A stretch of DNA of 61,089 nucleotides from IMG/VR virus record IMGVR_UViG_3300031658_000007, positions 1-61,089 of that record; one strand, 5' to 3'. Within the stretch, counting starts at the first letter, position 1. The number at the start of each line of letters is the position of its first letter. The translations under genes and the position numbers were made by a program. The notes beneath the pieces were generated by a model. It did no database searches, had not been told where the DNA came from, and was given only the letters and a program-made list of their open reading frames with translations. Below are positions 2,169-56,884 of this stretch, in pieces. Source of the DNA: a virus.

Positions 2169-4637
2169 TTACACTACGCCCAAGATTAGAGCATTATCAT
2201 GATAGTTACCTACTAATGTATCATAATTATAGAAGCTAGAGAAGTCATATTGCATAGGACCAGCCATGTACCTTAAAGTATCTGGGCTACGTAAGTATGC
2301 TAGGTAGGTCGGGTTTAGTCCAGACTCCTGAGCTTCTATAAGACCAGCTATTTCCTGTGACCTAGTATTGAACTCATCATTTATCCTAGCTGACTCTTCT
2401 CTAAGAGCCATAAGGTCTGAATTTATATCAGCTGTTAGTATATCTGAGAAAGTAGTTACAGCATTTAAAACACTAGCAGGGTCAGAAAATAATGTACTTC
2501 CACCACCTGTTTGAAATGTTAAGTAAACTGCTACTGCAGCTACTACTGCTTTTAAGAAGTCGTTGTCTATAGTATTTATTATAGCTATAGCTACTGTCAT
2601 TATAATGTAGTTTGATATTATTTTTATAAAGAATTCCTTACCTAAAGTAGCGGGATTAAAGGTTATAACAGCAATAACTATAAGAATAAACTCCATAAAT
2701 GAAGCGAATAAGCTAGTTTCGTACCACTCTAAATGAGTTAGTGTAACACCGTAAAAGTTTAATCTTAATGATGCATTAAGTAATTCTATCTGCTCTAAAG
2801 GTGTTAAAGAGTTAACAGAAAAGTTAGAGATAAGTACAGTAAAGTTACTATTACCTAACTTGGAAACACTCATATTCTCATTTCCGTTACCAGCTATGAA
2901 ATCAATTCCAGATAAATCATTTAGTACTATAACTGAACACGTAGTAGGATTAATTTGTTTACGCATAGTTAATGTAGTTATAGAAGTAACAGAATGGTTA
3001 TATGTACCTACACTACCAATAACAAGTGCCTGTGTTGAAGCAGACTGAGTAGACCAAACTAAGGCTTTCTTAACGTTTTGCTCTATGAAAGTAGCGTAGT
3101 AGCCTTCGTCATTAAGATCACTATTAAAATTAACAGCTTGTGTTGTTACTAAACCATAGAACATTTCGTAAAGTATTTTTGATACTACTTTAGAAGTATC
3201 TGTAGGGTTTACAGCGAAAGTTAAAAACACCTCTGGTACGTTAGCTATATCAGGATTTTCCTCTACCTGTGTCATTATATCTTCAAAGTTTAAATCTAAA
3301 GTATCAAGTAACGCTACTGTGCCATCGTAGTTAGCTTGTCCTTCAGTAGCTACACTTACTGTTTCGTTACTCTCTCTTAAAATACCTATAGGCATCATTT
3401 CAAGATTTGTAACAGTACTGTAAACTCTTCTTACTTCAGGAAAGGTATTAGTAGTTAAATCATAAAGCCAATACCTCCACTCACTAGATGATGTAACCCA
3501 GTACGTAGCTATAACGTATACTTTTATAGGATACGCACTGTAACTAAGCGTAGTAGAAATAGTAGCAATTGAAGCAGAAGGCATAGTTGTATTATCTGTT
3601 TGTACAGAATTAGCTGCTGCCCACGTTATGTTTGTTGTTATTGAAGACTTACCTACAGCTAGTGAAGTCAGTTCAAAACTAGTTTGTGTAGATATACTAC
3701 TAATACTAACTGCCATACTTACACTACCAGAAGATAATACACCTCCTGTTGTACCTATAGTAAAAGTAGCAGTGGTACTATTTGCTGGTATAACTACACT
3801 AGAAACACCAGTGTAATGAGTGCCATTTACAGCACTTCCTGTGTAAGCTAGGTTTACTGTTACTGTGTTACCAGAAGGAACAGGTCTGTCTATGCTTATT
3901 GTATAGCTAGTGGTAGTGTTTCCTTGCTGTACTTCAGAAGGACCAGATAAGTAAAAGGTAGTAATTGGTCTTATTCTGGTAATTGGCATACTGTAAGTAT
4001 TGTTACCAGCGTTGTACGTAATAGCTCCTAGTGCGTAATTTGTCCAAGTACCATAAGCGTCTGTGTAAGTAAGAGTGTTAGACCAAGGGTGGTATGAAAA
4101 GTTGTCTTGTAGGTAATGCTTATAGTACTCTTCTTTAGATGGGTGTCTCTCAGTTACAGTAATAAGTGTAGGTGAACTGCTGGGTGTGCCATATGGTCTG
4201 TTAGGAACATATATATTTAGAGCATCTACAATTGCAGATTTATTTATACTACTTGTTTTTATATTTGAAGTAGGCAGCTCATAAGGGTAAGCACCAGATT
4301 CTGCAAAAGTGTAGTAGCCGTCTATCATAACTGATCCCATAAACGCATGTTTTATAAAAGCAGAAGTTAAAGGAACATCAGGATTTTTAGTATGTTCTAC
4401 AGCAATTTTTGTTATAGCATCACTTTCTAAGTCCATAGAATCAGGGTAAAGTTTTTGTGATACTAACTGAACATTAACTACAGTCTGGTCTTCTATACCG
4501 AATACTCCAGCAACTATCTCTAGTGCTGGCATTACTATTTCATCCCATATTCCCTCAACGATTCCAGTAACAACATCATCTACTACCTCTATGATGTCGT
4601 CTATGATGTCGTCTATGATTTCTACTAGGTCACTCAT
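2169..4637 (-). CDS. Large virion protein with Calx-beta-like domain and C-terminal membrane segments
   Basis: An 822-residue protein. The N-terminus is extremely acidic and Ile/Val-rich (repeated Asp-Asp-Ile/Val within residues 5-30). Residues about 225-310 look like a Calx-beta fold: a Thr/Ser-rich beta segment with Gly-x-x-Tyr-x-Gly-Val followed by a Val-Ile-Pro-Ala turn. Residues about 640-705 hold two or three hydrophobic stretches that could span a membrane, followed by a Gly-rich turn and an amphipathic C-terminus. The ATG overlaps the preceding stop by 4 nt. The position matches the N4 region of ejected proteins, so a membrane-penetrating role is plausible but inferred. It is the last gene before the 209-residue gene and lies directly downstream of the acyl module. 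Confidence 0.6.
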   Translation of the reverse strand: MSDLVEIIDDIIDDIIEVVDDVVTGIVEGIWDEIVMPALEIVAGVFGIEDQTVVNVQLVSQKLYPDSMDLESDAITKIAVEHTKNPDVPLTSAFIKHAFMGSVMIDGYYTFAESGAYPYELPTSNIKTSSINKSAIVDALNIYVPNRPYGTPSSSPTLITVTERHPSKEEYYKHYLQDNFSYHPWSNTLTYTDAYGTWTNYALGAITYNAGNNTYSMPITRIRPITTFYLSGPSEVQQGNTTTSYTISIDRPVPSGNTVTVNLAYTGSAVNGTHYTGVSSVVIPANSTTATFTIGTTGGVLSSGSVSMAVSISSISTQTSFELTSLAVGKSSITTNITWAAANSVQTDNTTMPSASIATISTTLSYSAYPIKVYVIATYWVTSSSEWRYWLYDLTTNTFPEVRRVYSTVTNLEMMPIGILRESNETVSVATEGQANYDGTVALLDTLDLNFEDIMTQVEENPDIANVPEVFLTFAVNPTDTSKVVSKILYEMFYGLVTTQAVNFNSDLNDEGYYATFIEQNVKKALVWSTQSASTQALVIGSVGTYNHSVTSITTLTMRKQINPTTCSVIVLNDLSGIDFIAGNGNENMSVSKLGNSNFTVLISNFSVNSLTPLEQIELLNASLRLNFYGVTLTHLEWYETSLFASFMEFILIVIAVITFNPATLGKEFFIKIISNYIIMTVAIAIINTIDNDFLKAVVAAVAVYLTFQTGGGSTLFSDPASVLNAVTTFSDILTADINSDLMALREESARINDEFNTRSQEIAGLIEAQESGLNPTYLAYLRSPDTLRYMAGPMQYDFSSFYNYDTLVGNYHDNALILGVV

Positions 4638-5119
4638 AGCCAGTTCAACTTCTTTATAAGGGTTTCTATTTTTAACTTAAATAAGTCTACACGAATAACA
4701 ACAGGAGTACCAAACTCGTACCATTTACGTATGCTTTTAATAGTTAGAAAACTTTTAAACTTTATAACTCCTTCATTTTTGTGGGGTGTAAAACTTAGTA
4801 ACTTTGTATTAGGATCTATGTCTTCAGAAAAAACACCTGTAAATAACGCTAACATTCCTAGTGGGTTATTATCACCATAGAAAATTAATCCGTTTGATTT
4901 ATAACGGTCTAATCTTGTGTAGTATAGAAAGCAAGAACCATCAACTAAGCAGTAAGCTGTACTTTCTTCTATGGATTTTAGCATTGCAGTCTTATACTTT
5001 TCTGAAGTACCAGAAGGAAGTATATGGGATACAGTAGAGTAATGGGTTACTATGTCTTCTTTAGTGCATTTCCTTACACTTTGGCGTATTAATTCTGGGG
5101 TGAACGATTGGTATTTCAT
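4634..5119 (-). CDS. Conserved phage protein, 161 aa, downstream of the ketoacyl synthase
   Basis: No motif identifies it with certainty. The centre contains Tyr-Cys-Leu-Val-Asp-Gly-Ser-Cys and an aromatic Tyr-Gly-Asp-Asn-Asn-Pro-Leu stretch (residues about 55-90). The C-terminus is basic. Small virion-operon proteins of this kind in podoviruses are sometimes labelled acyl/acetyltransferase-like (T7 gp13/DUF2833 type), but I do not see that family's signature clearly. It starts 6 nt after the ketoacyl synthase stop and overlaps the next start by 4 nt, so it is co-transcribed with the acyl genes and could be part of that module. Confidence 0.5.
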   Translation of the reverse strand: MKYQSFTPELIRQSVRKCTKEDIVTHYSTVSHILPSGTSEKYKTAMLKSIEESTAYCLVDGSCFLYYTRLDRYKSNGLIFYGDNNPLGMLALFTGVFSEDIDPNTKLLSFTPHKNEGVIKFKSFLTIKSIRKWYEFGTPVVIRVDLFKLKIETLIKKLNWL

Positions 5120-5125
5120 GTAAAC

Positions 5126-5962
5126 CTAGTGTTTATTTATTGTACATGCACCGAAAAACCCACCTGCTCCATTAGCTACAGCTAGTATAGTTCCTTTTAT
5201 ACTATCATCAGATAGTACCATACATACTTCTAGTAGGCTGCTTATACCCTGTGTGTGTCCTATATCTTGCTTGTAAGCTATTGGTGTAGCTAAGGCAGCT
5301 AGATCTACTTCTGCTTCAGTATTAGATGGTGTGCCTGTTCCGTGTAGTTTAACATAGTCAACAGGGTAACTTGGTATTAATGTGTTTAAGTTATCTCTTG
5401 TAAAATAGAAAGCATTTCTGTTGTAAACAAAGTCGAATCTAGAGTCTACTATGTCGTTACCACCTGCACCTAACTTCATATACACAAACCCATCACCACA
5501 CATGAGTTTTATCTTAATCTCTCTAAAAGACCTTAAAGTTTCTTTAGATGTACGCTCACCACCAATAATAATAACTTCTTCACATATACCTGAGTCTAAC
5601 CAAGAGTTAGCTATGGTAAGTGCTTGTACACCGCTAGAGCATGTACCACTGGTAGTGGTTGCTACTTTTATATGCTCTGGATTTTTAAAACTACCTATCC
5701 ATTTATGCATAATATAGCTAGTGCCGCATGTTAATGCCACTAGGTACTTAGTGGAATCATTACGAGAAACACCACTTTCAGCTTGTGAAATAGTGAAACC
5801 ATCAACGTATATAAAACCTGTATCCTTAGTCAGCTCTACGTTTAAGTCAGCTAACTTAATGAACTGGTTTACAGAGGATAAGTCTCTATCTAGTTCTGGT
5901 ATAGCGAAATAGTCTTCTCTTCTTTCCGTTGGAACTATGTGCTTGTACGAGAGGATTTGCAT
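5126..5962 (-). CDS. Beta-ketoacyl synthase (KAS, FabF/thiolase superfamily), compact
   Basis: Predicted condensing enzyme that extends an acyl chain by decarboxylative Claisen condensation on an acyl carrier protein. The catalytic residues are all present: nucleophile Cys108 in Thr-Cys-Ser-Ser-Gly, His207 in His-Gly-Thr-Gly-Thr, Lys231 five residues before His236, and His236 in Gly-His-Thr-Gln-Gly. The Gly-Asp-Gly motif (156-158) and the C-terminal Asn-Gly-Ala-Gly-Gly-Phe-Phe-Gly loop also fit the fold. At 278 residues it is far shorter than FabF (about 410), mostly by losing N-terminal and cap segments. It overlaps the acyl carrier protein gene by 28 nt. It sits inside the virion gene operon, not with metabolic genes. 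The real substrate and any acceptor are unknown. Confidence 0.88.
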   Translation of the reverse strand: MQILSYKHIVPTERREDYFAIPELDRDLSSVNQFIKLADLNVELTKDTGFIYVDGFTISQAESGVSRNDSTKYLVALTCGTSYIMHKWIGSFKNPEHIKVATTTSGTCSSGVQALTIANSWLDSGICEEVIIIGGERTSKETLRSFREIKIKLMCGDGFVYMKLGAGGNDIVDSRFDFVYNRNAFYFTRDNLNTLIPSYPVDYVKLHGTGTPSNTEAEVDLAALATPIAYKQDIGHTQGISSLLEVCMVLSDDSIKGTILAVANGAGGFFGACTINKH

Positions 5963-6180
5963 GTGTTCACTAAGTCCTTAACCGATAGTTTAAATTGATC
6001 TAGGGTTTCTACCAACTTTTCATCTATGTCATATTCTGCGGAAAGCATTAGCAACACCATTGAAACACCCAGACTATCTAGCTCACTGTCCATAAACATA
6101 TCGTCCATGAGAAGTGGCATACCATTCTCAGAGGCAACTTGTGTATTTATATTAGCTAGTATCTCTTCTTCTTCAGTCAT
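5935..6180 (-). CDS. Acyl carrier protein
   Basis: An 81-residue acidic protein with the phosphopantetheine attachment motif Asp-Ser-Leu at residues 35-37 (Ser36), preceded by acidic residues and followed by the helix II pattern Gly-Val-Ser-Met-Val-Leu-Leu. Length and position of the Ser match bacterial AcpP. It would need a host 4'-phosphopantetheinyl transferase, since none is seen here. The ATG overlaps the preceding stop (TAATG), and the gene runs into the ketoacyl synthase, so the two are translated together. The natural partner is very likely the adjacent synthase; the host fatty acid pathway is an alternative target. Confidence 0.85.
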   Translation of the reverse strand: MTEEEEILANINTQVASENGMPLLMDDMFMDSELDSLGVSMVLLMLSAEYDIDEKLVETLDQFKLSVKDLVNTCKSSRTST

Positions 6181-6995
6181 TATGGTATTGCTGTTCCACC
6201 AACGTCAGTCATTATACTGTTGTATAAGTTCTTGGTGTTAGCTTCTACGGTAGTACTAGGAGGATCACCTGTTTTAATTACGGAGTAGTAAATAGCCCAA
6301 GTCTCTAAGGCTTTAGCTAGTACTTTTTGTTTAGAGTCTACTTTAAATCCTAAAGTCTGTGCTACTATTAAGTCATCTTTTTTATCTTCAGTAACTTTTT
6401 GTGACTGCATTAACAAGTTCTGTGACCCAAGAAGTGTAATCTTAGCTGCTCCTTCAAGTACTTGTTTATCTACTAACAAACCTTGTTTACCAGTTAATGC
6501 TATCTTAGCTGTTCCTTCTTCTATCTGCTTATCTATCATAAGCCCTTGTTTCGTGTCTAGGCTAATTTTAGATGAACCTTCTTCTACCTGCTTGTCTACT
6601 AGTAAACCTTGCTTAGTTTCTATAGCTATCTTAGAACTTCCTTGCTCTACTTGTTTGTCTATTAGAACTCCTTGTTTTGTGTCTAGCGTAATCTTAGAAG
6701 TAGTTTCTTCAACCTGTTTATCTACTAGCAACTTTTGTGACTGTAGCATAGCAGATTGGTCTATCTGTATTTGAGTTTCTAAATATATCTTAGCTGATGT
6801 CTGAATTGCTGCTTGCATAGCACCAAGGTATACGTTGGCGTAATCAACGTTACTGATAGCTCCTGCTGTGTATTGGGATTTTATATGAGCAGTGATGGTT
6901 TCCATCATGTTGTCAAAAATACCACTACCAGTTACGGCAAAGGTAGTACCATCAGTAGCTACATTATTTGTAAATTCAGTAAAAGCTAAAGTCAT
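6180..6995 (-). CDS. Virion-region protein with five 21-residue repeats
   Basis: A 271-residue protein. Residues about 85-205 are built from about five copies of a 21-residue unit with the pattern Lys-Gln-Gly-Leu-Leu-Val-Asp-Lys-Gln-Val-Glu-Glu-Gly, then Ser/Ala-Lys-Ile-Ser-Leu-Asp-Thr. The repeat is also visible in the DNA as 63-base units. The hydrophobic spacing suggests a long rod, either coiled coil or beta-solenoid. The N-terminal 80 residues are non-repetitive. The gene precedes and overlaps the acyl carrier gene. The many Ser, Thr and Lys residues on a repeating surface make it one candidate acceptor for acylation, which is speculation. It is otherwise a probable structural protein. 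Confidence 0.6.
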   Translation of the reverse strand: MTLAFTEFTNNVATDGTTFAVTGSGIFDNMMETITAHIKSQYTAGAISNVDYANVYLGAMQAAIQTSAKIYLETQIQIDQSAMLQSQKLLVDKQVEETTSKITLDTKQGVLIDKQVEQGSSKIAIETKQGLLVDKQVEEGSSKISLDTKQGLMIDKQIEEGTAKIALTGKQGLLVDKQVLEGAAKITLLGSQNLLMQSQKVTEDKKDDLIVAQTLGFKVDSKQKVLAKALETWAIYYSVIKTGDPPSTTVEANTKNLYNSIMTDVGGTAIP

Positions 6996-7584: not shown

Positions 7585-8808
7585 TTACGAACTAGCGCAA
7601 ACATATCCTTTAAGTAAACGTTCTTCGCGCAAGATGATACCTGCATACCACATGTTGTAGCTGAAGAAACCTTGATTACCATAAGGGTTAGCAAGTTCAG
7701 TCTTCTCAGGAGACTGACTGTTGAACTTGATTTTTCCTTTACCTTTAAGACCAACAGTAGCAAAAGAGCCTTTAGTTGGGAAAAGAATTGGGAAAACGTC
7801 AAAGTTGTCTCTGTCACCAGCAGTAGCAGAAGTATTATCTGTACCACCACTAGCAGAAAGAGCACCAACGTAGCTTTGAGGTACAACAGCACCACCAGCA
7901 GCGTATACAACAGCAGATTCTGACTCAATGAAACGAACATCGTTCATTGCGCCAACTTCGCCTTCAGCTAGGTTAGTAGCGTCTGCATACTTGTATGCTG
8001 GAACATAAGCGAACTCTTCAGCATTACCAGAACCTTTTGTAAGACCTTCAAGGTCATACTTAATTTCTGGGCCAATGATTGCATAAAACGCTTTATTGAT
8101 TACACGGGTATCAATTTTAGTTGAACCTGTAACAATAGAAGTGTTTTTCTCAGCACGGTTACGTACAAGACGACGAGAGATCTTACGAACCATATCATAA
8201 GAAACTTGAGAATCCACATCGTCAGAACCTGAAGCAGAAGTGGTATCCTGTCCTACTGTCACAAGTGAAGTAGCAGTACCTACATACTGAATAGTAGTGG
8301 TATCAAGCATGTCTAACTGAATAAGATCTTCAGAACGACGATTAGCTAGATGACCTAACTCTTCACGATACTGAACCTGAACCATATCTTCAGAGAACAT
8401 AGTAACGTCATCAGTGTAGTCTAACATCTCACCATATCGTGCAAACGCACAACTAATAGTTACTTTCTTTAAAGCAACCTTGTTTACTGCAGCTGCGCCT
8501 TCAGCAAGAGTAGGCATTCCAGATGATACGTCAGTAATATTACGTGCTGACAAATAACCTTTAGTGCCAAAAGCTGCGTTAGTTCCACCAACTTGTGAGC
8601 TTGGATCTAGAATACGATCATAGATATGAAGGAACTTACTAACCTTGTAAGTTTTGCCCATGTTCATAGGCATAGAACGACGATCAGAGAACTGAGCGTA
8701 TACGTTTACGGCATTCGCAGCTTTAACACCTGCTTTGTCGTAATAATGAACAACAGTATTCGGACCGCCTGTGGCGTTCGTTCCTGCGTTATATTGATTT
8801 GTAGCCAT
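7585..8808 (-). CDS. Major capsid protein, N4-gp56 type
   Basis: A 407-residue protein with the general pattern of the N4 gp56 capsid family: near the N-terminus an Ala-Gln-Phe-x-x-Arg-x-Ser-Met-Pro-Met-Asn-x-Gly-Lys-Thr segment, then Val-Ser-Lys-Phe, a central Tyr-Gly-Glu-Met followed by an Asp-rich stretch, and a helical Leu-x-x-Arg-Arg-Ser-Glu-Asp region. It lies directly downstream of an acidic scaffold-like gene and two genes from the portal. This is the usual portal-scaffold-capsid order. The call rests on remembered family features and context, not on a search. Confidence 0.78.
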   Translation of the reverse strand: MATNQYNAGTNATGGPNTVVHYYDKAGVKAANAVNVYAQFSDRRSMPMNMGKTYKVSKFLHIYDRILDPSSQVGGTNAAFGTKGYLSARNITDVSSGMPTLAEGAAAVNKVALKKVTISCAFARYGEMLDYTDDVTMFSEDMVQVQYREELGHLANRRSEDLIQLDMLDTTTIQYVGTATSLVTVGQDTTSASGSDDVDSQVSYDMVRKISRRLVRNRAEKNTSIVTGSTKIDTRVINKAFYAIIGPEIKYDLEGLTKGSGNAEEFAYVPAYKYADATNLAEGEVGAMNDVRFIESESAVVYAAGGAVVPQSYVGALSASGGTDNTSATAGDRDNFDVFPILFPTKGSFATVGLKGKGKIKFNSQSPEKTELANPYGNQGFFSYNMWYAGIILREERLLKGYVCASS

Positions 8809-8830: not shown

Positions 8831-9913
8831 TTAATTTGCTTGTTCAAGATTCTTGTACCAAGCATCAAATTTTTCATCATTTCCATCGTCTAAATAATCG
8901 ACGACACTTTTTTGTCCAGAACGGGAGCCTGTTGAAGTAGCTGCCCGTTTTGATTCAGCTTCTGATGATTCCTTACCAAATTTTGTTTCTGCTTCTTGTG
9001 CGCCTTTATTCAGATCATCTACCTGTTTCTGACCGTTATCAGTTTGAGTAGCTTTCTGGTATTCAGCACCTGCAAGAAGATAGTAATCTAAACTGGACTT
9101 AGAATTTCCATCTAACATCTGTAACTTTGCTGCTTCAGGAGCTACTTTAGCGTAGACACCTGATTTTACATCATTGTGCAGACCCAGAATAATATCGGGG
9201 TTGTCTGCAACACTTTTCCTAGACATATCATCCCACTGTTTGTCTATAACGTCAACAGTAGTACTATACTCTGGGTCTTTAGATATCTGAGAGTCTATCT
9301 CGTCTATCTTTATTTCAAAATCAGTTTTACCGTACCTTGTTGGGTTATACGGTGCATCATCATCCTCAAAACTTAAATCACTAAGATCTATATCTCTATC
9401 TGCAGCTAGTTTCTTTATAGCACCTTTGTCACCCTTTAAGATGTCTAGTGCCATATCAAACTGGTCTTGGGTGATACTTTCTTCTTCCAAGGCAGAAATC
9501 ATTTTACGGTAAGGAGCTATCTTCTGCATTTTCTGCGTGTAGTCCATAGCTTTACCGAACACACCTTCAAACTGAGACATAATTTCGTCATCAGTAAATT
9601 CAAAGTCCTGTCCGTTAGCTTTAAACTTACGTTTAATAGCTTCCTTTACTTCATCTTCTTTAACTTCTTCTGATAAAGGTTCTTCTTCACTAGCAACTTC
9701 TTCAGAAGTTTCTGATGTTGTGTCTTCACTATCAGAGTCACTAACTGTTTCTTCAATAGGTTCATCTATTTGATCACTAGTGTCAGTATCGACTGTTTCA
9801 ACACTATCACTAGTAGGATCAGATTTTTCTTCTTCCCTTCGGATAGCATTAATAGCATCCATAGGATCTATATCATTTTCTAAAATCTCGTCTTCTGAAA
9901 GTTCCTGAGACAT
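8831..9913 (-). CDS. Scaffolding-like protein
   Basis: A 360-residue protein, very acidic at the N-terminus (Glu/Asp/Ser/Thr-rich through residue about 95), then helical and charged throughout, ending in a short basic/aromatic helix. This composition and its place between portal and capsid are typical of phage head scaffolds, which assemble with capsid subunits and are removed before DNA packaging. The ATG lies at the preceding gene's stop. There is no sequence-specific motif, so the name rests on composition and position. Confidence 0.68.
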   Translation of the reverse strand: MSQELSEDEILENDIDPMDAINAIRREEEKSDPTSDSVETVDTDTSDQIDEPIEETVSDSDSEDTTSETSEEVASEEEPLSEEVKEDEVKEAIKRKFKANGQDFEFTDDEIMSQFEGVFGKAMDYTQKMQKIAPYRKMISALEEESITQDQFDMALDILKGDKGAIKKLAADRDIDLSDLSFEDDDAPYNPTRYGKTDFEIKIDEIDSQISKDPEYSTTVDVIDKQWDDMSRKSVADNPDIILGLHNDVKSGVYAKVAPEAAKLQMLDGNSKSSLDYYLLAGAEYQKATQTDNGQKQVDDLNKGAQEAETKFGKESSEAESKRAATSTGSRSGQKSVVDYLDDGNDEKFDAWYKNLEQAN

Positions 9914-10341: not shown

Positions 10342-12267
10342 TTAACCATTCATAATATCTGCAGACTTTAAGTCTAGTTTTGTCATACGATCATGATCCT
10401 TCTTCGTTAATTCGTCAGCCATGTCTTCACCTGTAACCTTACTCATAAAGTCTAGATCTTTAATGTCTGTATCTGAATTTACAAGTCTTGCTTTAGCTTC
10501 AGCTAGTACAGCGTTAGCAGTTTTAAGTCGCATATCAACTTGATTTTCCATAGCCCTAGATTCACGCTCATTAATCTCAGCTTCCAGCTTACGCATCTCT
10601 AGAGAATGCATCTGTGCTTGATGCTCATCAGGTTGTGGTTGATATTCTTTAAGTGACTTGGCTAGGTCTGGCATTTTATGTAACCTAGCTACCTGACTCA
10701 TAAGAAGATTTCTCATTCCTGCGTCCATACCTTGTCCAAGTGTTTGCAGTAAGAATGAAAGTTGTTGTCCTTTACTTGAGTTATCTTCAGCTGTTGATAC
10801 TTCTATTTCAATATCAATGTCACCTCTAAGATCGTCTTTCCTTATTGTTACAAACTCTTCATTTGTTATACGAACAACCTCTTCGTCTTTTAACCACTTA
10901 GAGTTGTACGATAACCATTTACGCATAAGAGGTTTAACTAAGTTTTCAGCTATGTTTCTTACAATATCCAATCTTCGTACAGACACAGCATCTAGTGCTC
11001 CTCTGGCAGAAGTAGCTGTTGAACCTAAACTTGCTCCACTAATACCACCAGCAAAACCTTTTACACCAGTAATAGATTCTGTCTCGTTATTAACTAGCTC
11101 TAATACAGAAAACACACTACTAGGTATAGGGTTGTAAGAACCTTCAAAAAAGTCACTAGACGAAGTGTTGTATTCAAAGTGTTTGTTACCAAGAAATCTT
11201 TTTCTGTTAAGTGTATCTAAGGCACCTTTACGTATACCTTTCTGACCATTATTAGAATTAGCCATGTTATCTATAATTCCACGCTTTATAGCGGTAGATA
11301 TCTTTTGGTTATCACCAATAGTTTCTGCGTTAGCTTCACCTGTCATTTGGAAAGGTATAGAGTTATGAGCTACTACTAAGAATGGTATTTTATCATCAGG
11401 GTAAGGATTAGATTCTAGTCTAATAATAGTGTTGTTTATCCAAGTACAGACAATAGGTTTAGCTATACCAGTGTCTTCAATATCGTAATTACCCCAGTAC
11501 TCATGAACAATTATTTTCTTTCTTGGTTGGTCTTTAAACTCAAAGTTTGTGTCATCTTCATTTTCAAAGTCACCTGTGTCTTTAACTAGGTTAAGTGCTA
11601 CCTTATCCAGTTCTTTCTTCTTATACTTCTTGCTAGTTCTAAGAGTGGTTAGATCACTTTCATACCTATGTATTATAAACTGGCATTTATCAATATCACC
11701 AAGACAAGTAGGATCAATGTAAATATCTTCTATACGACAAGTTTCAGCATAAGGTTTATTTACAGTAACATTTAGTTCTTTTACTAGTTTTGTACCTGTC
11801 TGTACAGGTTCCATAGTAGCTGGGTCTAACTCGTAAGTAGGGTACTCAACTTCAACTTCTTCATCTGCGTAGTCCCATGAACACTTAACTACAAGTGTAC
11901 CCTCAGTAGTAAGTAGCTTTACTGCATCGGTAATAAACTTATACCTATTAAACTTTCTAGTAAACTGGTAGTTAAGTACTAATTCATTTTGTTCCGCTGC
12001 AGCTCTATCTTCTGATGTGATAGGTACACACTTTATAATATCACTAGTAGATAAAAAGGGATCTTTTAGAGAAGCATGTTGCCATTCATCTTGACGTTTT
12101 ATGTCTCTAGACACTAATGAAGATTTACCTTTTACTTCATTACCGTAGTTTTCTCCGTTGTAAGCTTTCTTCCAAGTTTCTACTTGGCTTACAGTTTCTA
12201 AACGAAGGTTATCTGCAGCAGTTAAATCATCTTTTAGACTACTTAAAATTTTAGCTTTATCTACCAT
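10342..12267 (-). CDS. Portal protein
   Basis: A 641-residue protein of portal size and position. Features seen: an N-terminal helical region with Trp-Lys-Lys-Ala-Tyr, a conserved-looking Ala-Ser-Leu-Lys-Asp-Pro-Phe stretch near residue 65, a long central mixed region, an Ala/Gly/Ser-rich stretch around residue 400-430 (Gly-Gly-Ile-Ser-Gly-Ala), and a long charged helical C-terminus (from about residue 520). N4-type portals form the dodecameric DNA entry ring and bind terminase and the tail. The assignment uses gene order plus general architecture. Confidence 0.72.
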   Translation of the reverse strand: MVDKAKILSSLKDDLTAADNLRLETVSQVETWKKAYNGENYGNEVKGKSSLVSRDIKRQDEWQHASLKDPFLSTSDIIKCVPITSEDRAAAEQNELVLNYQFTRKFNRYKFITDAVKLLTTEGTLVVKCSWDYADEEVEVEYPTYELDPATMEPVQTGTKLVKELNVTVNKPYAETCRIEDIYIDPTCLGDIDKCQFIIHRYESDLTTLRTSKKYKKKELDKVALNLVKDTGDFENEDDTNFEFKDQPRKKIIVHEYWGNYDIEDTGIAKPIVCTWINNTIIRLESNPYPDDKIPFLVVAHNSIPFQMTGEANAETIGDNQKISTAIKRGIIDNMANSNNGQKGIRKGALDTLNRKRFLGNKHFEYNTSSSDFFEGSYNPIPSSVFSVLELVNNETESITGVKGFAGGISGASLGSTATSARGALDAVSVRRLDIVRNIAENLVKPLMRKWLSYNSKWLKDEEVVRITNEEFVTIRKDDLRGDIDIEIEVSTAEDNSSKGQQLSFLLQTLGQGMDAGMRNLLMSQVARLHKMPDLAKSLKEYQPQPDEHQAQMHSLEMRKLEAEINERESRAMENQVDMRLKTANAVLAEAKARLVNSDTDIKDLDFMSKVTGEDMADELTKKDHDRMTKLDLKSADIMNG

Positions 12268-16654: not shown

Positions 16655-17079
16655 TGTTTATTCTCTTGGTCATTTAGCACAATTGCTAGTACCTGATCAC
16701 CGTAAAGTGGGTGATCGGGTTTTGGGGTTTTTACATGTAGTATAAAATCTGCATCGAAATAATCGCTAGGCCAGCGATACTCGCTGTTTCCTACGATGTA
16801 CATTGCGTCTTCTGGGTGCGTAAAATCACATAACTCAGTGGATTCAAACCCATCCCGTTCTTCTTCAATCACAACGATAGGGTGATCACCACCGAGCATA
16901 ACTTCGTCAACCGAATCAACTAGTTGAAGTGATACGCCGTAGGTATGCATCAGTGACCAGTAGTGGCATTCAAAGCGTTGCTTTCTAACAGGGTCATCAC
17001 ACTCAGGATGGGGATAAAACCCCACAATAAAGATGTGAGGGTCTGATGCTTTAGTTCGTTTGTATGCCTGTGTGATCAC
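16651..17079 (-). CDS. SPOUT/TrmH-like fold protein (tentative)
   Basis: I chose the GTG at 17079, which overlaps the preceding TGA by 4 nt (GTGA), over a longer frame that runs into the Gly-rich gene. The 142-residue product begins with a hydrophobic strand (Ile-Phe-Ile-Val-Gly-Phe-Tyr). The C-terminal half has His-Pro-Glu-Asp-Ala-Met-Tyr-Ile-Val-Gly-Asn-Ser-Glu-Tyr, then Ile-Leu-His-Val-Lys-Thr-Pro-Lys-Pro, which resembles the knot region of SPOUT RNA methyltransferases. This is a pattern-level resemblance; an unrelated alpha/beta protein is possible. Confidence 0.5.
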   Translation of the reverse strand: MITQAYKRTKASDPHIFIVGFYPHPECDDPVRKQRFECHYWSLMHTYGVSLQLVDSVDEVMLGGDHPIVVIEEERDGFESTELCDFTHPEDAMYIVGNSEYRWPSDYFDADFILHVKTPKPDHPLYGDQVLAIVLNDQENKQ

Positions 17080-17987
17080 GAGATAGTTCCAGCATATGAG
17101 CCGTATCCACCAGACCAAGAGATGTTTGAGCCGTTGCGTTGGATTGCAATACCTCTTGATCCACCAGCTCCACCACCCCAAGTTGAACTACCGCCACCAT
17201 TACCAGCTGCTCCAGCACCACCACCTGTACCACCAGATCCTGCTGTGCCAGAAACTCCACCAGAACAATGTGTTCTTGATAAAGATGCTCCACCACCCCC
17301 ACCAGCTTGAGATCCTGTGCTTCCGTAACCAGTACCGCCATTACCACCAGAGGCATATGAGTAGGAACTAGAGTTGGTACAAGTAGTAGCCCAACTGGTA
17401 CAGCCCCATTTATTACTAGTAGCACAATAGGTAGATGTGGTTCTGTCGTTTAGTATTCGGAAGCCACCACCGCCACCACCGCCACCGCCTCCACCATATA
17501 TCTGGCTGTTGTTGTCGATAGTGAGGTTGGATGTGCCTGTTGAAGACTGTATGGACATAGCACGGCCACCAGCACCACCACTATAGCCAGCAGCATTATT
17601 TCTGCCACCACCACCAGTACCACGATAACCTTTAATGCTTCCGTTTATTACTAAAGTTACGTGGTTATAACCAGTGATATTTCCAGTTTGGAATGCCCAG
17701 TTACCTGAATTACTGGCAATTGCATTACCTGTCAGGGTTACGTGAATTGGATTGCTACTATTTAGGTTGGAGAATGCAGATTGAGATGTCAATACAAAGT
17801 GTGTACCCATACTGATACTTACGTATTGGATATTAGACTTACCATGAAACTGGTTCATGGATATCTGTCCACTAGTAGGTATGCCAGAAGCACGACCATA
17901 GTATTCAGACATAGTGATAGGATGCCCTCCACCAAACTCACTTTGGAGGTTAGCGAAGCTTATTGCCCCTGAACCTTGTAGAGCCAT
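17076..17987 (-). CDS. Glycine-rich tail tip adhesin
   Basis: A 303-residue protein. The N-terminal 50 residues have the phage fibre-tip pattern (Ile-Ser-Phe-x-Asn-Leu-Gln-Ser-Glu-Phe-Gly-Gly, then Ser-Glu-Tyr-Tyr-Gly and Ile-Ser-Met-Asn-Gln-Phe). The C-terminal half carries long Gly runs (one of about eleven Gly) alternating with Ser/Asn/aromatic and Cys-containing loops, as in polyglycine-helix receptor-binding tips. It is translated after the S74 fibre gene and abuts it. Likely receptor recognition. Confidence 0.75.
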   Translation of the reverse strand: MALQGSGAISFANLQSEFGGGHPITMSEYYGRASGIPTSGQISMNQFHGKSNIQYVSISMGTHFVLTSQSAFSNLNSSNPIHVTLTGNAIASNSGNWAFQTGNITGYNHVTLVINGSIKGYRGTGGGGRNNAAGYSGGAGGRAMSIQSSTGTSNLTIDNNSQIYGGGGGGGGGGGFRILNDRTTSTYCATSNKWGCTSWATTCTNSSSYSYASGGNGGTGYGSTGSQAGGGGGASLSRTHCSGGVSGTAGSGGTGGGAGAAGNGGGSSTWGGGAGGSRGIAIQRNGSNISWSGGYGSYAGTIS

Positions 17988-50719: not shown

Positions 50720-50746
50720 AAGTGGGGTGTAAAACCCCCACTTTTA
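50720..50746. terminator. Bidirectional terminator between convergent halves
   Basis: AGTGGGG (50721-50727) pairs with CCCCACT (50736-50742), flanked by A/T-rich runs on both sides (TTTTAT rightward, TTATAT leftward). It separates the end of the middle genes from the stop of the virion polymerase gene, which lies within it. Confidence 0.8.
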
Positions 50747-53700
50747 TATTATGCTTTTCATTCCTATGTAGTTCCAAGGATTCTGGAATATGCCAGTAAA
50801 AGAAGTATGCATGTTCCAAACATTTGAATCCCATATTTGTTGTGCATTAAGATTAAAGTAGTTTTCAATTGCCAGTTCTGTACCAAAACTAACTGGCTTG
50901 TTTTTAACCATTCTGTATATTGCTTTCTGTATACGAAGTCCATAGTTAGGAAAGGGAATAATTCCTACGTCACTAAGTTGTTTTATCTTTAATGGTAGAA
51001 CTTCCTTATAATCAGGAAAGGAGTCTGTAACCTCTAACTCAGCTTTCTTAGGGTCCATATCTTTAACTCCTACAAGATGCCTGTAATAAGTTTCTTTAGC
51101 TAGTATGTCTGTAAGATCAGTCATATGACTGCCTAGTTTTACAAACTCACTGTCAGGGCTATTAAGGTACTGGTGCAGGTAACTAATTAAATCATCTTCT
51201 GACTTAATGTCTTTAAGTCTTTTAGCAATTCTATTAAGCTCAGTCTCAACATTTTTAGTAGAGTCAAGGCTTCCAAACACAGGACTCAGAGTTTCTAAAA
51301 ATTCTTCTAGTCCTACATTCCATCTAGAAAAGTTCATAATGAATTTACCTATATCATTATTTTTACCTTTGTTATCTTGAAATATGGTTTTTAAAACTGA
51401 GTCTAAGTCTTTTTTAAACCCTGAAGATGGGTCATTAGCATTAACAATTAATTCAGAACCTAGAGAGTTAATGAAGCCTCTAGTCACTAAACCATTAGAA
51501 GGATGAGCTTTCAACTTATCATTTAAAAGTTTAATTTTCTTTTGCAAAGATTTATCATCAGGTCTAGCGTAACCTCTTACTCTAAGTTGTGTAAGTTCAT
51601 TTTTAATCTTTTGATAACCATCGAATTCGCTACTAATTAACCTGTAACTTTTCTGTATCTCTAGAGGGTCTACACCCATTACAGACAAGTATGACAAATT
51701 AGACATGTTATCTGCTGCTATTTTGGCTGGGTTTAAAATAACCATACTAATCTTAGCACCAGTTACAAAACTTTTAGTAATACGTAATGCCCATTTTAAC
51801 TTTGGGTCTGTAGCAATAGAGCTTTCAGTAGCACCTACTAGCCAATAGTTTATATCTTTCCTAACGTATTGAACTCTAGATTCTAGTGTACCTTTTCCAT
51901 TACTACTTTTAACATTAGATAGTTTCTTACTTTTTGGCATATAAGCTGCTTGAACTTCTTTTGGCAAGTCACTAAATTTAATGTCTTCATTCCCACCTAT
52001 AAACCAAGGATGATCTCTGTTTTTGTCTTTAATCAAGTCAGATAGGTTATCAGTTCCTTTACTCCCTAAATTCCAGTAATTAGTTTCTTCCATTATCAAA
52101 TCACGAATAATATGAGTATCAAGTATAGCCATGTTATGAGCCATAGTTCTAACTAGACCTTGTGAGGCATCTTTAACTAAACCTATTTCATTCTTGTACT
52201 TTGTCTCTAGTATGTACTTATACTTATCACCAATTTTTACTACTCTAGGGTCATGTCTCATTTCCTTACCAACAACAATGTCAGTACTTTGAGTGCGTAT
52301 GTCAGTAAAAGCACCTTCAATAAATGTACTATCTATTACTTGTTTATACACAACACCTAATGAATTTTTTGTAGGAGATTTTAAAACTTTCCACCCTGAT
52401 TTTTCTTCATAAGCGTAGTTGTTTACCTGCTCTTGGTTAACAACCTTAAACACAGTTTGTTCTTTATACTGGTCTGTCATTTGGCTATCTCTCATGTCTA
52501 ACTTAGGTATTCTACCTTCTGTTAGTATGAGTTCATTTGCTACCACTACATCTTTAACAAGATCTGCCATAGCTGTGTTGGACATAAGTTTAGTAAACCG
52601 TTGTGGACCATCCTCTATAGCTAGGATAGACTTTAGTACTACTAGCTTTCTAGCAGAAGACTTTAAGTTGTCCTGAACGCTAAGAGCATTAACATTGTAA
52701 ATAGTGTCTGTATATACTTTGTCGTTTACGTTTAACTCAACTATTGTCTCCATTTTACGTAATTGGGGTGTATCAAATAGCACCTCTAGTGCTTTTACCT
52801 CTGCATCAAAATCTGTTACACCTTCTGCGAATAGAAAGTAATCTTGAATCGCCATCTTACTTGTAAAGTCATACAAGTCAGTCTTTTCAACATCACTTAA
52901 CTTTAACTTGTTAAACTTTTGTAGTTCTTTACTAGTTAAGTCTTCTCTCCCAGAACGAGTAGCAGCAGCTAAAGACAAAACTTTATTCTTTAAATCTGTG
53001 TTTACATTAGAGTTTGTAATCTTATGTATTATTCCTTGTAGTGCTTCAGAACTATCGTAAATTCCTTTAATTTTATCTAGTGTAGTCGCATATAAAGGAA
53101 AGTTTGTCCTCATAAAGTCGTCTACCCACTTAATTCCCTCACCAGATTTATTAACTAATGGGTCATTAATACGCCTAGCTATAGAAGCATTCATAAGCTC
53201 AACTGCTCCACTTATTCCATCAGAATTTATAGGAGAAGCTGCAAACAAATCTTTACCATACCAAGTTTGAATTGCTTTTATATTAGCAATATTTGTTTCT
53301 CTTTCACTAGTACCTTCAGCAATTACTGAATTAATAGCCGTATACAACTTACCAGCGTCTACATCATTAGTTACAACATCTCTATAAGAAACAGAAGATA
53401 ACATTTCTTTAACTTTAGCTTTGACAAAAGCAATAACTTTTTTAAGCCTAGATTTATTACTGTCACCTAAAGCTTTATATACTTTTTTAGCTACTTCAGA
53501 CTCAGAATTCATAATAGCTATAAACTCTGCTAATCTAGTGGCTTCTCCTCCTGTATTGTCAAGAGCGTATTTTAAGCGGTTTATAGTAGTATTGTCTAAA
53601 ACTATTCTGCCTGAGTCTATATTGTCACGAAGCCTGTTCATGCTTTTAGATATGTAAGCAAGATTAAGGTCTAGCTGCGGACTAGTTGATTTAACGTTGT

Positions 53701-56700
53701 TAGATCTATTAATTGCCCAATCAGAAATTAAACCAATAGTATAGCTGTGTGTAATTTCGTGTTCAATTAACTCAATTAAATTTTTGCGGCCTTTAGCAGT
53801 TTTTATACTCTGAACACTGCCACCAGTACGATCATCTTTATCAGATATAACAATAGTGTCATTATCAGTATCAAATTTATTCTGAGATCCTTTTATTACT
53901 GTTGAAGAATTATTTTCTGTAAGAAACTTACTAATTACTGCAGATTCTGAAGCTAGGTCTTCTAGTATGTCTGTTTCAGACAAAGAAGAATCTTTAAAAG
54001 ATTTTTTAGGTTTAGGTTTAGGTTTTACAATAGACGTTGGCACAAGACCATCACCTATGACACTAAGAGTTTTAAATCCACGAGACTCTTCTAGTATTTC
54101 CTGCTTTACTGATTTTTCCTTGCGTATAGTATCAAGCAAACTCACAAAATCTGAATCTTTTTTTAATGAAGGATCATATGCAAGAGCAGCCATTAATGCC
54201 TGTTCGTGTATATCAAAATCAAATGCAGCATTAAAATCTTGTTCTACGTACTGACCTTCAAACTCCATAAGAGCAGGTGCAGAAGTACGTGTATCATCGT
54301 GGATACTTATTGATCCTGTTTCATGTTTAGTAGGTAAACCAGCTATGCCTCTGTACTGGTTGCTAGTGTCTACACCATGTACTTGAGACACACCAAGAAC
54401 AGTAGGTTGAAGTTTATCTTCTCTTGTTAATACTGTTTCACCGTCAACAGTATTTTGAACTTCAAATACTTTAGTTAACGGTAAACCAAAATCTTTAAGG
54501 TGTTCTTTTGTGTAAGATAAAGCTTTGCCACCGTTAAAAGCTTCTACAACTGCAGCAGCAGGATACATTCTCATTTTACTGAGAAGAGGATTGTTGTTTA
54601 AAAATTTAAATACTTGTTCACTACGTTTTCTGTAAGTAGCTAAGTATTCTGTAACTAGCGAATCAGTTAAAGTATCAAACAAGAAAGAAGGCATACCAGA
54701 ACTAGCAAATGCTTTTCTTAGCTCGTCTTTAATATTTCTGTCATCTCGAAGTGCGTCTCTGCCTTCTTGATTATTTTTGTGGTCTGTACCAAGTAACTCA
54801 TTAACTAAATCTATTGTGTCACTAGAAACCTTAATTTTATTTAAATTAGCAACTAACAAACCACTAAAAGTATTAGACAAAGAATTGTTAGCACCCTCTT
54901 CAGACTGTTGGTAAATAAAAGTCATTGTCGGTCCTTTGGACAATTCTCTTATGTCTCCGTTATAAAGATCTTTAGATACTAAATCTACAATTTTCTTTAT
55001 TTTGTCATTGTTTTCATTTTCTCTAACGTAAAAGTCATCTAAGTCAGTAATGTTATTAACAAAGTTTTCAAGCTTAACTTTAAGAATTCCGTATATGTCT
55101 TTTAACTTATCTTGTGTGTCTACTTCACCATCAAGTAACCCAAGTCTTTGCATAAGTTTTTTTATACTGCTAGGATTTGTCCCAAGTGCTTGTTTAAGTA
55201 TCAGCTGTCCACCAGATGCTGTAGCGTCACTGCTGACCATATAAGAGGTCTTAATAGTTTTACTACCTAGTGAATCTCTTATACCTTTAGCAGCTCTTAC
55301 AGTAGTTACAATGTCTGCAAAATCAAGATGCGGAAATAACCCTTGTAACTGAGTTAGTTGTTTTAATTTTCCTGCAGCCGTGTCTTTACTGACAAACTTA
55401 TCATACATTTCAAATGCTTGAGTGAGAGTTTTACCTTCTTCAGTAACGTTATCAGAATCTAAAAGTACTTCAGGAGTACTATTTCCTTCAAAGTCTGTTA
55501 AACCTAGACGTAAAGCAACTTTGTTTACGTAAAAATTATATACTTCAGAACCTACAGACATTTCATATTCAGAAATAGTTAAAGCATGACGCATTAATTT
55601 AGACGCTTGTGGGTTAACAACACTATTTTCGTAATATAATCTTGCGTTTTTACCACCAAACATAGGCATATACAGACTTGCTGCTTTTCCGTTAGCGTCT
55701 GTCATATGGTCGTAGTATTCAATTAAATCATCTACAGGAGTAGTTTTAGATAAATTACGACCTACATGACTAGATTGGTCAGCAAGGACAATATTAATTT
55801 TTTCTACTTTAAACAGATTTTTTAACGTTTCTGTATCCTTAATGTGATTTGATATCCATTTAGAAGCACTCATGTCACTGTCTTTTAGTTCTTTGTGCAA
55901 AAGATCAAAAAAACTGTGTAAATCAGAGTCTATAAACACTGGGTTAGACTCAAGTTCTTTACGTGCTGCTTCCATTTCTGGTGTAAGAGTATAAGCGTCT
56001 TGATTTTTTCGCTCTTTTATAGGAGAAGTAGAAGGTAAAGTAATATTACTTGGTTGAGACACGTAGTTAATAGATTCAATCACTTTAACGTATGCTGATA
56101 AAGGATGGTTGTTTATGTCAATAATAGATTTATCAGTAAAATATTTTTTAGCAGATGACTTAGCAGTAACATCAAATGCTTTAAGATTTAACTCTACCAC
56201 AGAAACTTCTGTAGTAACTTTTTCACTGTAATTACGTTTACTTGATATGTCATCAAGATAGTCTTTTATAGACCCTCTACCTTCGTGTACAGAAATAAAT
56301 CCGTTGTCCTGTAAGTTGTTGATAGCTACCATACCTGAACGATAATAAGCACGTTCTACGTCTACAGCAGACCCTTTACTGTCACTTATTTTTTTAAATC
56401 TATAACCTTCTAGATATAAAATTTTACGTCCTATAGTAGCAGCTAGTCGGTGAAGAGGAATATATGGGTTAACACCGTCATTACTAATGTCATTAATATT
56501 AACATTTTCGTTGCCAGCTTTGTCAATTTCACCTTTTATTGAGTCCATTATGTCTTTAAGTGCAATAGCTTGGTGTCTTGCAGACTTATCACTAGTAGTC
56601 TGTACACCATTGACTGTAACAGTCTGTAAACTTTTAACAAAAGTCTGCATTGCAGGTCGGAATTTTTCTGCTACGTCTAAGGATCTATCCAGTTTTCCCT

Positions 56701-56884
56701 TAATGCGTTTAGAGTCTACTTGAACATCTTTAGAAGAGAAGGATTCAAACATATCCATAACTTTTTTATCAGTTATTTCCCAGACATTCACCCTAGTTTC
56801 TTTATCAGTATTTCGGTCTATTTCGACATCTTTAGCTATGTTTCGTAACATACCTTTAACTGTGTTTCTTGGTGTACAGCTCAT
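50744..56884 (-). CDS. Virion RNA polymerase (N4 vRNAP type), 2046 aa, with internal zincin motif
   Basis: Giant single-subunit RNA polymerase packed in the virion and injected to transcribe early genes. Catalytic residues: Arg415 in Ala-Arg-Leu-Tyr-Tyr-Glu-Asn-Ser then Asn-Pro-Gln; motif A Asp553 in Ser-Asp-Ala-Thr-Ala-Ser-Gly; motif B Arg646-x3-Lys650, Met-Thr, Tyr658; motif C His862-Asp863-Asp. N4 mini-vRNAP uses R424, D559, R666, K670, Y678 and D951, the same order and the same motif B spacing. Downstream, His1042-Glu-Ile-Thr-His1046, with Glu in a following Ala-Glu-Phe helix, looks like a metallopeptidase. The C-terminal 700 residues resemble packaging/ejection segments. Shorter than N4 gp50 (about 3500). 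Convergent end gene of the late operon. Confidence 0.9.
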   Translation of the reverse strand: MSCTPRNTVKGMLRNIAKDVEIDRNTDKETRVNVWEITDKKVMDMFESFSSKDVQVDSKRIKGKLDRSLDVAEKFRPAMQTFVKSLQTVTVNGVQTTSDKSARHQAIALKDIMDSIKGEIDKAGNENVNINDISNDGVNPYIPLHRLAATIGRKILYLEGYRFKKISDSKGSAVDVERAYYRSGMVAINNLQDNGFISVHEGRGSIKDYLDDISSKRNYSEKVTTEVSVVELNLKAFDVTAKSSAKKYFTDKSIIDINNHPLSAYVKVIESINYVSQPSNITLPSTSPIKERKNQDAYTLTPEMEAARKELESNPVFIDSDLHSFFDLLHKELKDSDMSASKWISNHIKDTETLKNLFKVEKINIVLADQSSHVGRNLSKTTPVDDLIEYYDHMTDANGKAASLYMPMFGGKNARLYYENSVVNPQASKLMRHALTISEYEMSVGSEVYNFYVNKVALRLGLTDFEGNSTPEVLLDSDNVTEEGKTLTQAFEMYDKFVSKDTAAGKLKQLTQLQGLFPHLDFADIVTTVRAAKGIRDSLGSKTIKTSYMVSSDATASGGQLILKQALGTNPSSIKKLMQRLGLLDGEVDTQDKLKDIYGILKVKLENFVNNITDLDDFYVRENENNDKIKKIVDLVSKDLYNGDIRELSKGPTMTFIYQQSEEGANNSLSNTFSGLLVANLNKIKVSSDTIDLVNELLGTDHKNNQEGRDALRDDRNIKDELRKAFASSGMPSFLFDTLTDSLVTEYLATYRKRSEQVFKFLNNNPLLSKMRMYPAAAVVEAFNGGKALSYTKEHLKDFGLPLTKVFEVQNTVDGETVLTREDKLQPTVLGVSQVHGVDTSNQYRGIAGLPTKHETGSISIHDDTRTSAPALMEFEGQYVEQDFNAAFDFDIHEQALMAALAYDPSLKKDSDFVSLLDTIRKEKSVKQEILEESRGFKTLSVIGDGLVPTSIVKPKPKPKKSFKDSSLSETDILEDLASESAVISKFLTENNSSTVIKGSQNKFDTDNDTIVISDKDDRTGGSVQSIKTAKGRKNLIELIEHEITHSYTIGLISDWAINRSNNVKSTSPQLDLNLAYISKSMNRLRDNIDSGRIVLDNTTINRLKYALDNTGGEATRLAEFIAIMNSESEVAKKVYKALGDSNKSRLKKVIAFVKAKVKEMLSSVSYRDVVTNDVDAGKLYTAINSVIAEGTSERETNIANIKAIQTWYGKDLFAASPINSDGISGAVELMNASIARRINDPLVNKSGEGIKWVDDFMRTNFPLYATTLDKIKGIYDSSEALQGIIHKITNSNVNTDLKNKVLSLAAATRSGREDLTSKELQKFNKLKLSDVEKTDLYDFTSKMAIQDYFLFAEGVTDFDAEVKALEVLFDTPQLRKMETIVELNVNDKVYTDTIYNVNALSVQDNLKSSARKLVVLKSILAIEDGPQRFTKLMSNTAMADLVKDVVVANELILTEGRIPKLDMRDSQMTDQYKEQTVFKVVNQEQVNNYAYEEKSGWKVLKSPTKNSLGVVYKQVIDSTFIEGAFTDIRTQSTDIVVGKEMRHDPRVVKIGDKYKYILETKYKNEIGLVKDASQGLVRTMAHNMAILDTHIIRDLIMEETNYWNLGSKGTDNLSDLIKDKNRDHPWFIGGNEDIKFSDLPKEVQAAYMPKSKKLSNVKSSNGKGTLESRVQYVRKDINYWLVGATESSIATDPKLKWALRITKSFVTGAKISMVILNPAKIAADNMSNLSYLSVMGVDPLEIQKSYRLISSEFDGYQKIKNELTQLRVRGYARPDDKSLQKKIKLLNDKLKAHPSNGLVTRGFINSLGSELIVNANDPSSGFKKDLDSVLKTIFQDNKGKNNDIGKFIMNFSRWNVGLEEFLETLSPVFGSLDSTKNVETELNRIAKRLKDIKSEDDLISYLHQYLNSPDSEFVKLGSHMTDLTDILAKETYYRHLVGVKDMDPKKAELEVTDSFPDYKEVLPLKIKQLSDVGIIPFPNYGLRIQKAIYRMVKNKPVSFGTELAIENYFNLNAQQIWDSNVWNMHTSFTGIFQNPWNYIGMKSII

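Follow-up and report, generated by a model that had tools for sequence, protein, structure and literature searches.

An acyl carrier protein (ACP) and a beta-ketoacyl-ACP synthase (KAS) encoded in the virion operon of an N4-like phage are, on balance, probably the acyl-supply half of a cassette that N-acylates a plug or ejection protein through a GNAT-like enzyme; the acylation itself is predicted. The window analyzed is the whole of virus record IMGVR_UViG_3300031658_000007 (61,089 bases), which is of N4-like (schitovirus) type. Among its N4-like virion genes on the minus strand are those for the portal (10342-12267), a tape-measure-like protein (8831-9913), and the major capsid protein (7585-8808). 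Three genes on the same strand, encoding the ACP (5935-6180), the KAS (5126-5962), and a 161-amino-acid (aa) protein (4634-5119), lie between two structural genes: that of an N4 gp54-like virion structural protein (6180-6995, minus strand; phrog_2050, 3.5e-26), which forms the upstream boundary of the cassette, and that of an 822-aa N4 gp53-like tail-plug protein (2169-4637, minus strand), assigned by homology and position and proposed to be the substrate.

A first-pass annotation of this DNA had given both the ACP and KAS reading frames and their key residues correctly, and it was right about their 28-nt overlap and their siting among structural genes. It also had the pair in contact with both neighbors. 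The ACP start does overlap the stop of the preceding gp54-like gene by a single base, but the KAS stop is separated from the 161-aa gene by a 6-nt gap; the 161-aa gene in turn overlaps the start of the gp53-like gene by 4 nt.

Two other regions of the record were noted in passing. Three adjoining minus-strand open reading frames (ORFs) of 2046, 969, and 365 aa (50744-56884, 56888-59797, and 59799-60896), 1 to 3 nt apart, occupy the expected place of the giant virion RNA polymerase. Only the first (50744-56884) matched the virion RNA polymerase family, its best stretch falling near the C-terminal end of the profile, and the polymerase of this phage may be split into several proteins. A match to the phage tail fiber adhesin Gp38 (PF05268, 1.2e-8) was found at 17076-17987, near a 980-aa tail fiber gene.

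The 81-aa ACP had no Pfam match by itself, and PF00550 was matched weakly by 11 of 26 ACP relatives. When the family profile was searched against the PDB, the best 60 matches were ACPs only (top match, 2.8e-6), with the serine aligned. The phosphopantetheine serine, Ser36, had been placed in an Asp-Ser-Leu motif; it is indeed found there (D35-S36-L37; codon 6073-6075) and is kept in 103/103 relatives. The gene product is an ACP by homology to known ACPs, and its phosphopantetheinylation is predicted.

On its own, the 278-aa KAS matched ACP_syn_III (7e-6) and Ketoacyl-synt_C (7e-4) in Pfam, the latter at 20.0 bits against a curated cutoff of 20.8 bits; 25 of 27 KAS relatives matched Ketoacyl-synt_C at an E value of ≤0.01 (best, 4e-22). 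The KAS profile retrieved FabF from the PDB at 2.6e-26, with the motifs of the two aligned. All four residues that the first-pass annotation had listed as the complete set of a condensing enzyme, C108 (5639-5641), H207, K231, and H236, were invariant across 27 diverse KAS sequences. Because the catalytic set includes a second histidine (Cys-His-His plus Lys), the enzyme is of KAS I/II type and not KAS III (Cys-His-Asn). An AlphaFold2 model (pLDDT, 89.6; pTM, 0.88) was used for the structural comparison with FabF and FabB that had been suggested earlier, and Foldseek returned fatty acid and polyketide synthase (FAS/PKS) ketosynthases, FabF, and FabB at a probability of 1.0, indicating the thiolase fold. 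Fold and active site thus support the product as a KAS with predicted condensing activity. It resembles FabF and FabB, which are KAS I/II enzymes, in its thiolase fold, its Cys-His-His plus Lys set, and its HGTGT and GHT motifs; those enzymes are ~410 aa long, whereas the window KAS is compact, shares 12 to 16% identity with solved ketosynthases, and is encoded inside a virion operon. The possibility that the ACP and KAS frames are chance ORFs was ruled out by their strong conservation.

In mitochondria, acyl-ACP serves structurally with LYR proteins, and an ACP as structural subunit has precedent. By analogy, the ACP, the KAS, and the small protein could, without any acyl transfer, be virion or assembly factors that chaperone a hydrophobic tag on the gp53-like protein (described below); the cassette does lie among virion genes, and such a tag may need a chaperone. 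Structure alone, however, does not demand an invariant KAS C108/H207/K231/H236 set or an invariant ACP serine, and we regard domestication of this kind as distinctly unlikely.

The product of the third gene was modeled from six sequences (pLDDT, 82.6). A search with the model gave three matches at an E value of ≤0.001, all of them GNAT proteins with TM-scores of ~0.5, and the top structural matches included the N-terminal acetyltransferases Ard1, NatA, and NatE, to which the fold is nearest. No sequence-level match was found. Given this and the TM-scores, GNAT is for the 161-aa protein a fold assignment and not proof of activity, and we refer to the product as a candidate GNAT-fold acyltransferase, as predicted from the model. 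The CoA pyrophosphate loop motif, [QR]xxGx[GA], is absent from the window protein; it occurs in 13 of 78 relatives, at scattered, nonequivalent positions. A missing CoA loop would suit an acyl-ACP donor. No HlyC-family match was found in Pfam at an E value of ≤1. The first-pass annotation, correct on the ACP/KAS pair, had overlooked both this GNAT-fold gene and the tagged gp53-like protein. It had offered the option that the synthase itself acts as an acyltransferase, which we set aside as unnecessary since a distinct GNAT-fold candidate is encoded by the next gene.

N4 gp53 is the tail plug, and its residues 29 to 56 and 670 to 716 form a hydrophobic knot at the base of the tail tube (PMC12633501). 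The window protein belongs to the same family, but it carries an extra amphipathic N-terminal tag of ~45 residues (MSDLVEIIDDIIDDIIEVVDDVV...; 4503-4637, minus strand) that is not in N4 gp53, whose start (MGLFSSKTKIYVASS), by eye, aligns with the window protein near its residue 46. Six N4-like phages that lack the cassette (N4, Pollock, pVa5, VBP47, pYD6-A, and PT15-A5) also lack the extra N terminus. The tag is present in cassette carriers, including phages R22Y and PT11-V19, which have the ACP and small gene and lack a KAS; L191, which is more closely related to the window, likewise combines ACP, small gene, and tag without a KAS. As a separate observation, N4 gp53 itself (17538-20195 of L142) begins MGLFSSK, and several cassette-free relatives begin MGK, MGR, or MGLFSSK. 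Such starts resemble a myristoylation signal, probably by chance.

Tagged large proteins begin M-[SGA]-A-V-[VI]-[ED]-A-[IV], the predominant form of the motif being M-[SG]-A-V-V-[ED]-A-[VI], and the tag helix is strongly amphipathic (moment of 0.44, versus 0.17 ± 0.09 for shuffled sequences). The helix is also acidic, which is unusual for membrane insertion and counts against its acting as an acylated membrane helix; the tag could instead play a part in assembly. Among 74 distinct tags, none has a cysteine in its first 30 residues, lysine reaches at most 22% at any position, and no Lys, Ser, or Thr is conserved. In the absence of Cys and of any conserved Lys, the sole invariant nucleophile of the tag is its N-terminal amine, and residue 2 is the proposed acyl acceptor. 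That residue is Ser in 35 tags, Gly in 31, Ala in 4, Thr in 2, and Pro in 2. Ser or Gly thus accounts for 66 of 74 tags, against 19 of 149 for the remaining long genes at these loci, but the 74 sequences are related to one another, so that the counts are not independent and Ser/Gly could be conserved simply by common descent of the tag.

A small ACP together with a fatty acid condensing enzyme occurs in several groups of uncultured phages that are not related to one another. Two IMG/VR scans yielded more than 100 distinct KAS genes. An ACP gene lay directly upstream of 102/102 distinct KAS genes with enough upstream sequence to be testable. About 70 of the KAS relatives are in phages of P22-like gene order (e.g., MW202545), and at least 8 are in schito-like phages. 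Where the neighborhood is readable, the ACP and KAS genes stand just upstream of an enzyme-like gene, which is followed by a tagged virion protein. The small gene was recognized by profile after the KAS in 75 of 96 testable cases; L016 and L018 have a right-sized small gene in this position that is too diverged for the profile. The order ACP, KAS, small gene, tagged large virion protein recurs in both schito-like and P22-like phages, and the tagged proteins of the P22-like phages differ beyond the tag. The KAS, ACP, and small gene products co-diverge (r of 0.88 to 0.90), as adjacent genes are expected to do through joint inheritance alone.

The corresponding small gene of the P22-like phages is similar in size to the 161-aa schito-like gene. 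Homology between the two was not detected (hhalign probability, 0.1%), and the P22-like gene had no match in Pfam, PHROG, or the PDB. From its position, its size, and its residue pattern as we read it, we infer that it may likewise encode an acyltransferase.

A scan of genome contigs gave one close relative, on a Balneolaceae metagenome-assembled genome (MAG) contig that is phage-like in appearance. There, ACP, KAS, small gene, and a protein beginning MSAVV lie among phage-like tail genes (L143, 5705-8384), a hint of a Bacteroidota-related host. The other contig matches were distant and were taken for generic ketosynthases.

The association between small gene and tag was examined blind by scanning IMG/VR with the DNA of the first ten codons of the tag, making no use of the cassette. 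Of 51 matches, 30 were gene starts leading into an amphipathic helix, each of them placed directly after the small gene; the remaining 21 were internal or unrelated and had no small gene. This sorting used ORF context and is not fully independent of analyst judgment. Most of the 30 tagged starts had ACP and KAS genes upstream, and at least 6 had the small gene but neither ACP nor KAS, with enough upstream sequence to tell. In the four such loci inspected, the small gene adjoins the same upstream gene. P22-like phages L213, L222, L224, and L226 have the small gene and tagged protein without ACP and KAS and represent a natural minimal cassette. Since every genuine tagged start follows the small gene while ACP and KAS are sometimes absent, small gene and tag are the constant core and the ACP and KAS are optional suppliers.

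Some GNAT-fold enzymes are known to acylate small molecules from acyl-ACP. The GNAT-like enzyme might accordingly modify a small molecule of the N-acyl amino acid or acyl-homoserine lactone type, a host protein, or another virion protein, and the exact acceptor here is a proposal. With 30/30 genuine tagged starts directly following the small gene and no tag on cassette-free gp53, we consider a different acyl target unlikely. Of the roles raised in the first-pass annotation, the comparative evidence best supports acylation of a virion protein, although the acylation is still a prediction; the strict coupling of small gene and tag can be explained without invoking a decoy of host acyl carriers or a free lipid for entry. 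A free-standing ACP-KAS pair without other pathway enzymes would be in keeping with a decoy or an inhibitor of host fatty acid synthesis, but gene order, virion-operon siting, and the tag would all be left unexplained, and we judge this highly improbable.

Phage ACPs have been reported as auxiliary metabolic genes in the excerpts available from three papers (PMC11705849, PMC8224337, and PMC5463345). Alteromonas phage R22Y, Rhodobacteraceae prophages, and Erythrobacter phage R6L (acpP/fabF) resemble the window in having a phage-borne ACP, sometimes with a KAS, and those excerpts treat them as host-metabolism genes, among them the R22Y ACP (PMC11705849) and the acpP-fabF-fabG set of the prophages (PMC8224337). 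On such a reading, the phage ACP and KAS would boost or retune host fatty acid synthesis or membrane lipids during infection. One group of relatives keeps the pair beside replication genes: in L048 (6934-8644), L020, L036, L052, and L062, ACP and KAS stand between a helicase gene and a 105-aa gene. Neither small gene nor tag was found within these fragments at the loci of the L020/L048/L052 type, the visible virion genes are distant, and this group counts against an acylation cassette. A metabolic role agrees poorly, however, with a pair that in the window is flanked by gp54 and gp53 within the virion operon and is virion embedded in most relatives as well, or with the recurrence of small gene and tagged protein downstream in two phage lineages; R22Y has its own small gene and tag, for which a metabolic role does not account. 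Nor did the record contain a ketoreductase (FabG, PF13561), a malonyl transferase (FabD, PF00698), or a phosphopantetheinyl transferase (AcpS, PF01648), in searches whose controls were positive. The first-pass annotation had seen none of the three and had assigned the remaining steps to host enzymes, which fits their absence. We view a metabolic role as rather unlikely.

For the acylation cassette, the following sequence of events can be proposed. Host holo-ACP synthase (AcpS) would load phosphopantetheine onto the phage ACP. The phage KAS would then condense or extend a chain on this ACP, with host malonyl-ACP and reductases finishing the work; we infer this step because the active site is conserved and the other pathway enzymes are absent. 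Once the downstream virion protein had lost its initiator Met, the GNAT-fold enzyme would move the chain from acyl-ACP to the N-terminal amine thus exposed. In the window phage, the acceptor would be the gp53 tail plug, whose extra N terminus may lie close to the hydrophobic knot closing the tail tube. Once acylated, this helix might help the protein insert into the host envelope as the tail opens; alternatively, it might hold the plug.

There is about an even chance, in our estimate, that this extends to a general strategy in which at least two tailed-phage lineages encode their own lipidation machinery (a dedicated ACP, often a dedicated ketosynthase, possibly for a special chain, and an N-terminal acyltransferase) to acylate the Ser/Gly N terminus of a plug or ejection protein for envelope entry, tag and enzyme traveling as a module. 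If so, phages bring along the enzymes that lipidate their own entry protein, and structural studies of virions would overlook the modification unless it was sought by mass. A function would follow for many ACP and ketosynthase genes of phages that are currently assigned to host metabolism, and the breaching of the envelope by short-tailed phages would have a chemical handle. The cultured Alteromonas phages R22Y and PT11-V19 carry the version with ACP, GNAT-like gene, and tag, so direct testing is possible. No description of such a phage cassette was found in the open-licence literature searched, where absence is not proof of novelty.

In animal viruses, entry proteins are N-myristoylated at Gly2 by host N-myristoyltransferase (NMT) in an acyl-CoA-dependent reaction. 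The shared idea is a nonenveloped virus with a lipidated N terminus, predicted in the phage case, on its membrane-penetration protein; the phage differs in its virus-encoded, probably acyl-ACP-dependent machinery, in that residue 2 can be Ser and not just Gly, and in its bacterial host. The closest working analogues are HlyC/CyaC with RTX toxins and CdiC with class IV CdiA, where, as for HlyC/HlyA, an acyl-ACP-dependent enzyme encoded beside a large protein lipidates it and the lipid aids action at the envelope or membrane (PMC8510554). HlyC, CyaC, and CdiC draw on host ACP, have no KAS of their own, and modify internal lysines by means of a His/Asp dyad (PMC8510554), whereas the phage cassette has its own ACP and KAS, has no HlyC-family match, and offers the N-terminal amine as the only constant acceptor. 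Finally, compared with the N4 tail plug gp53 (PMC12633501), the window protein is of the same family and likewise follows a gp54-like gene, and it is set apart by its ~45-residue N-terminal tag and by the ACP-KAS-GNAT cassette inserted ahead of it.
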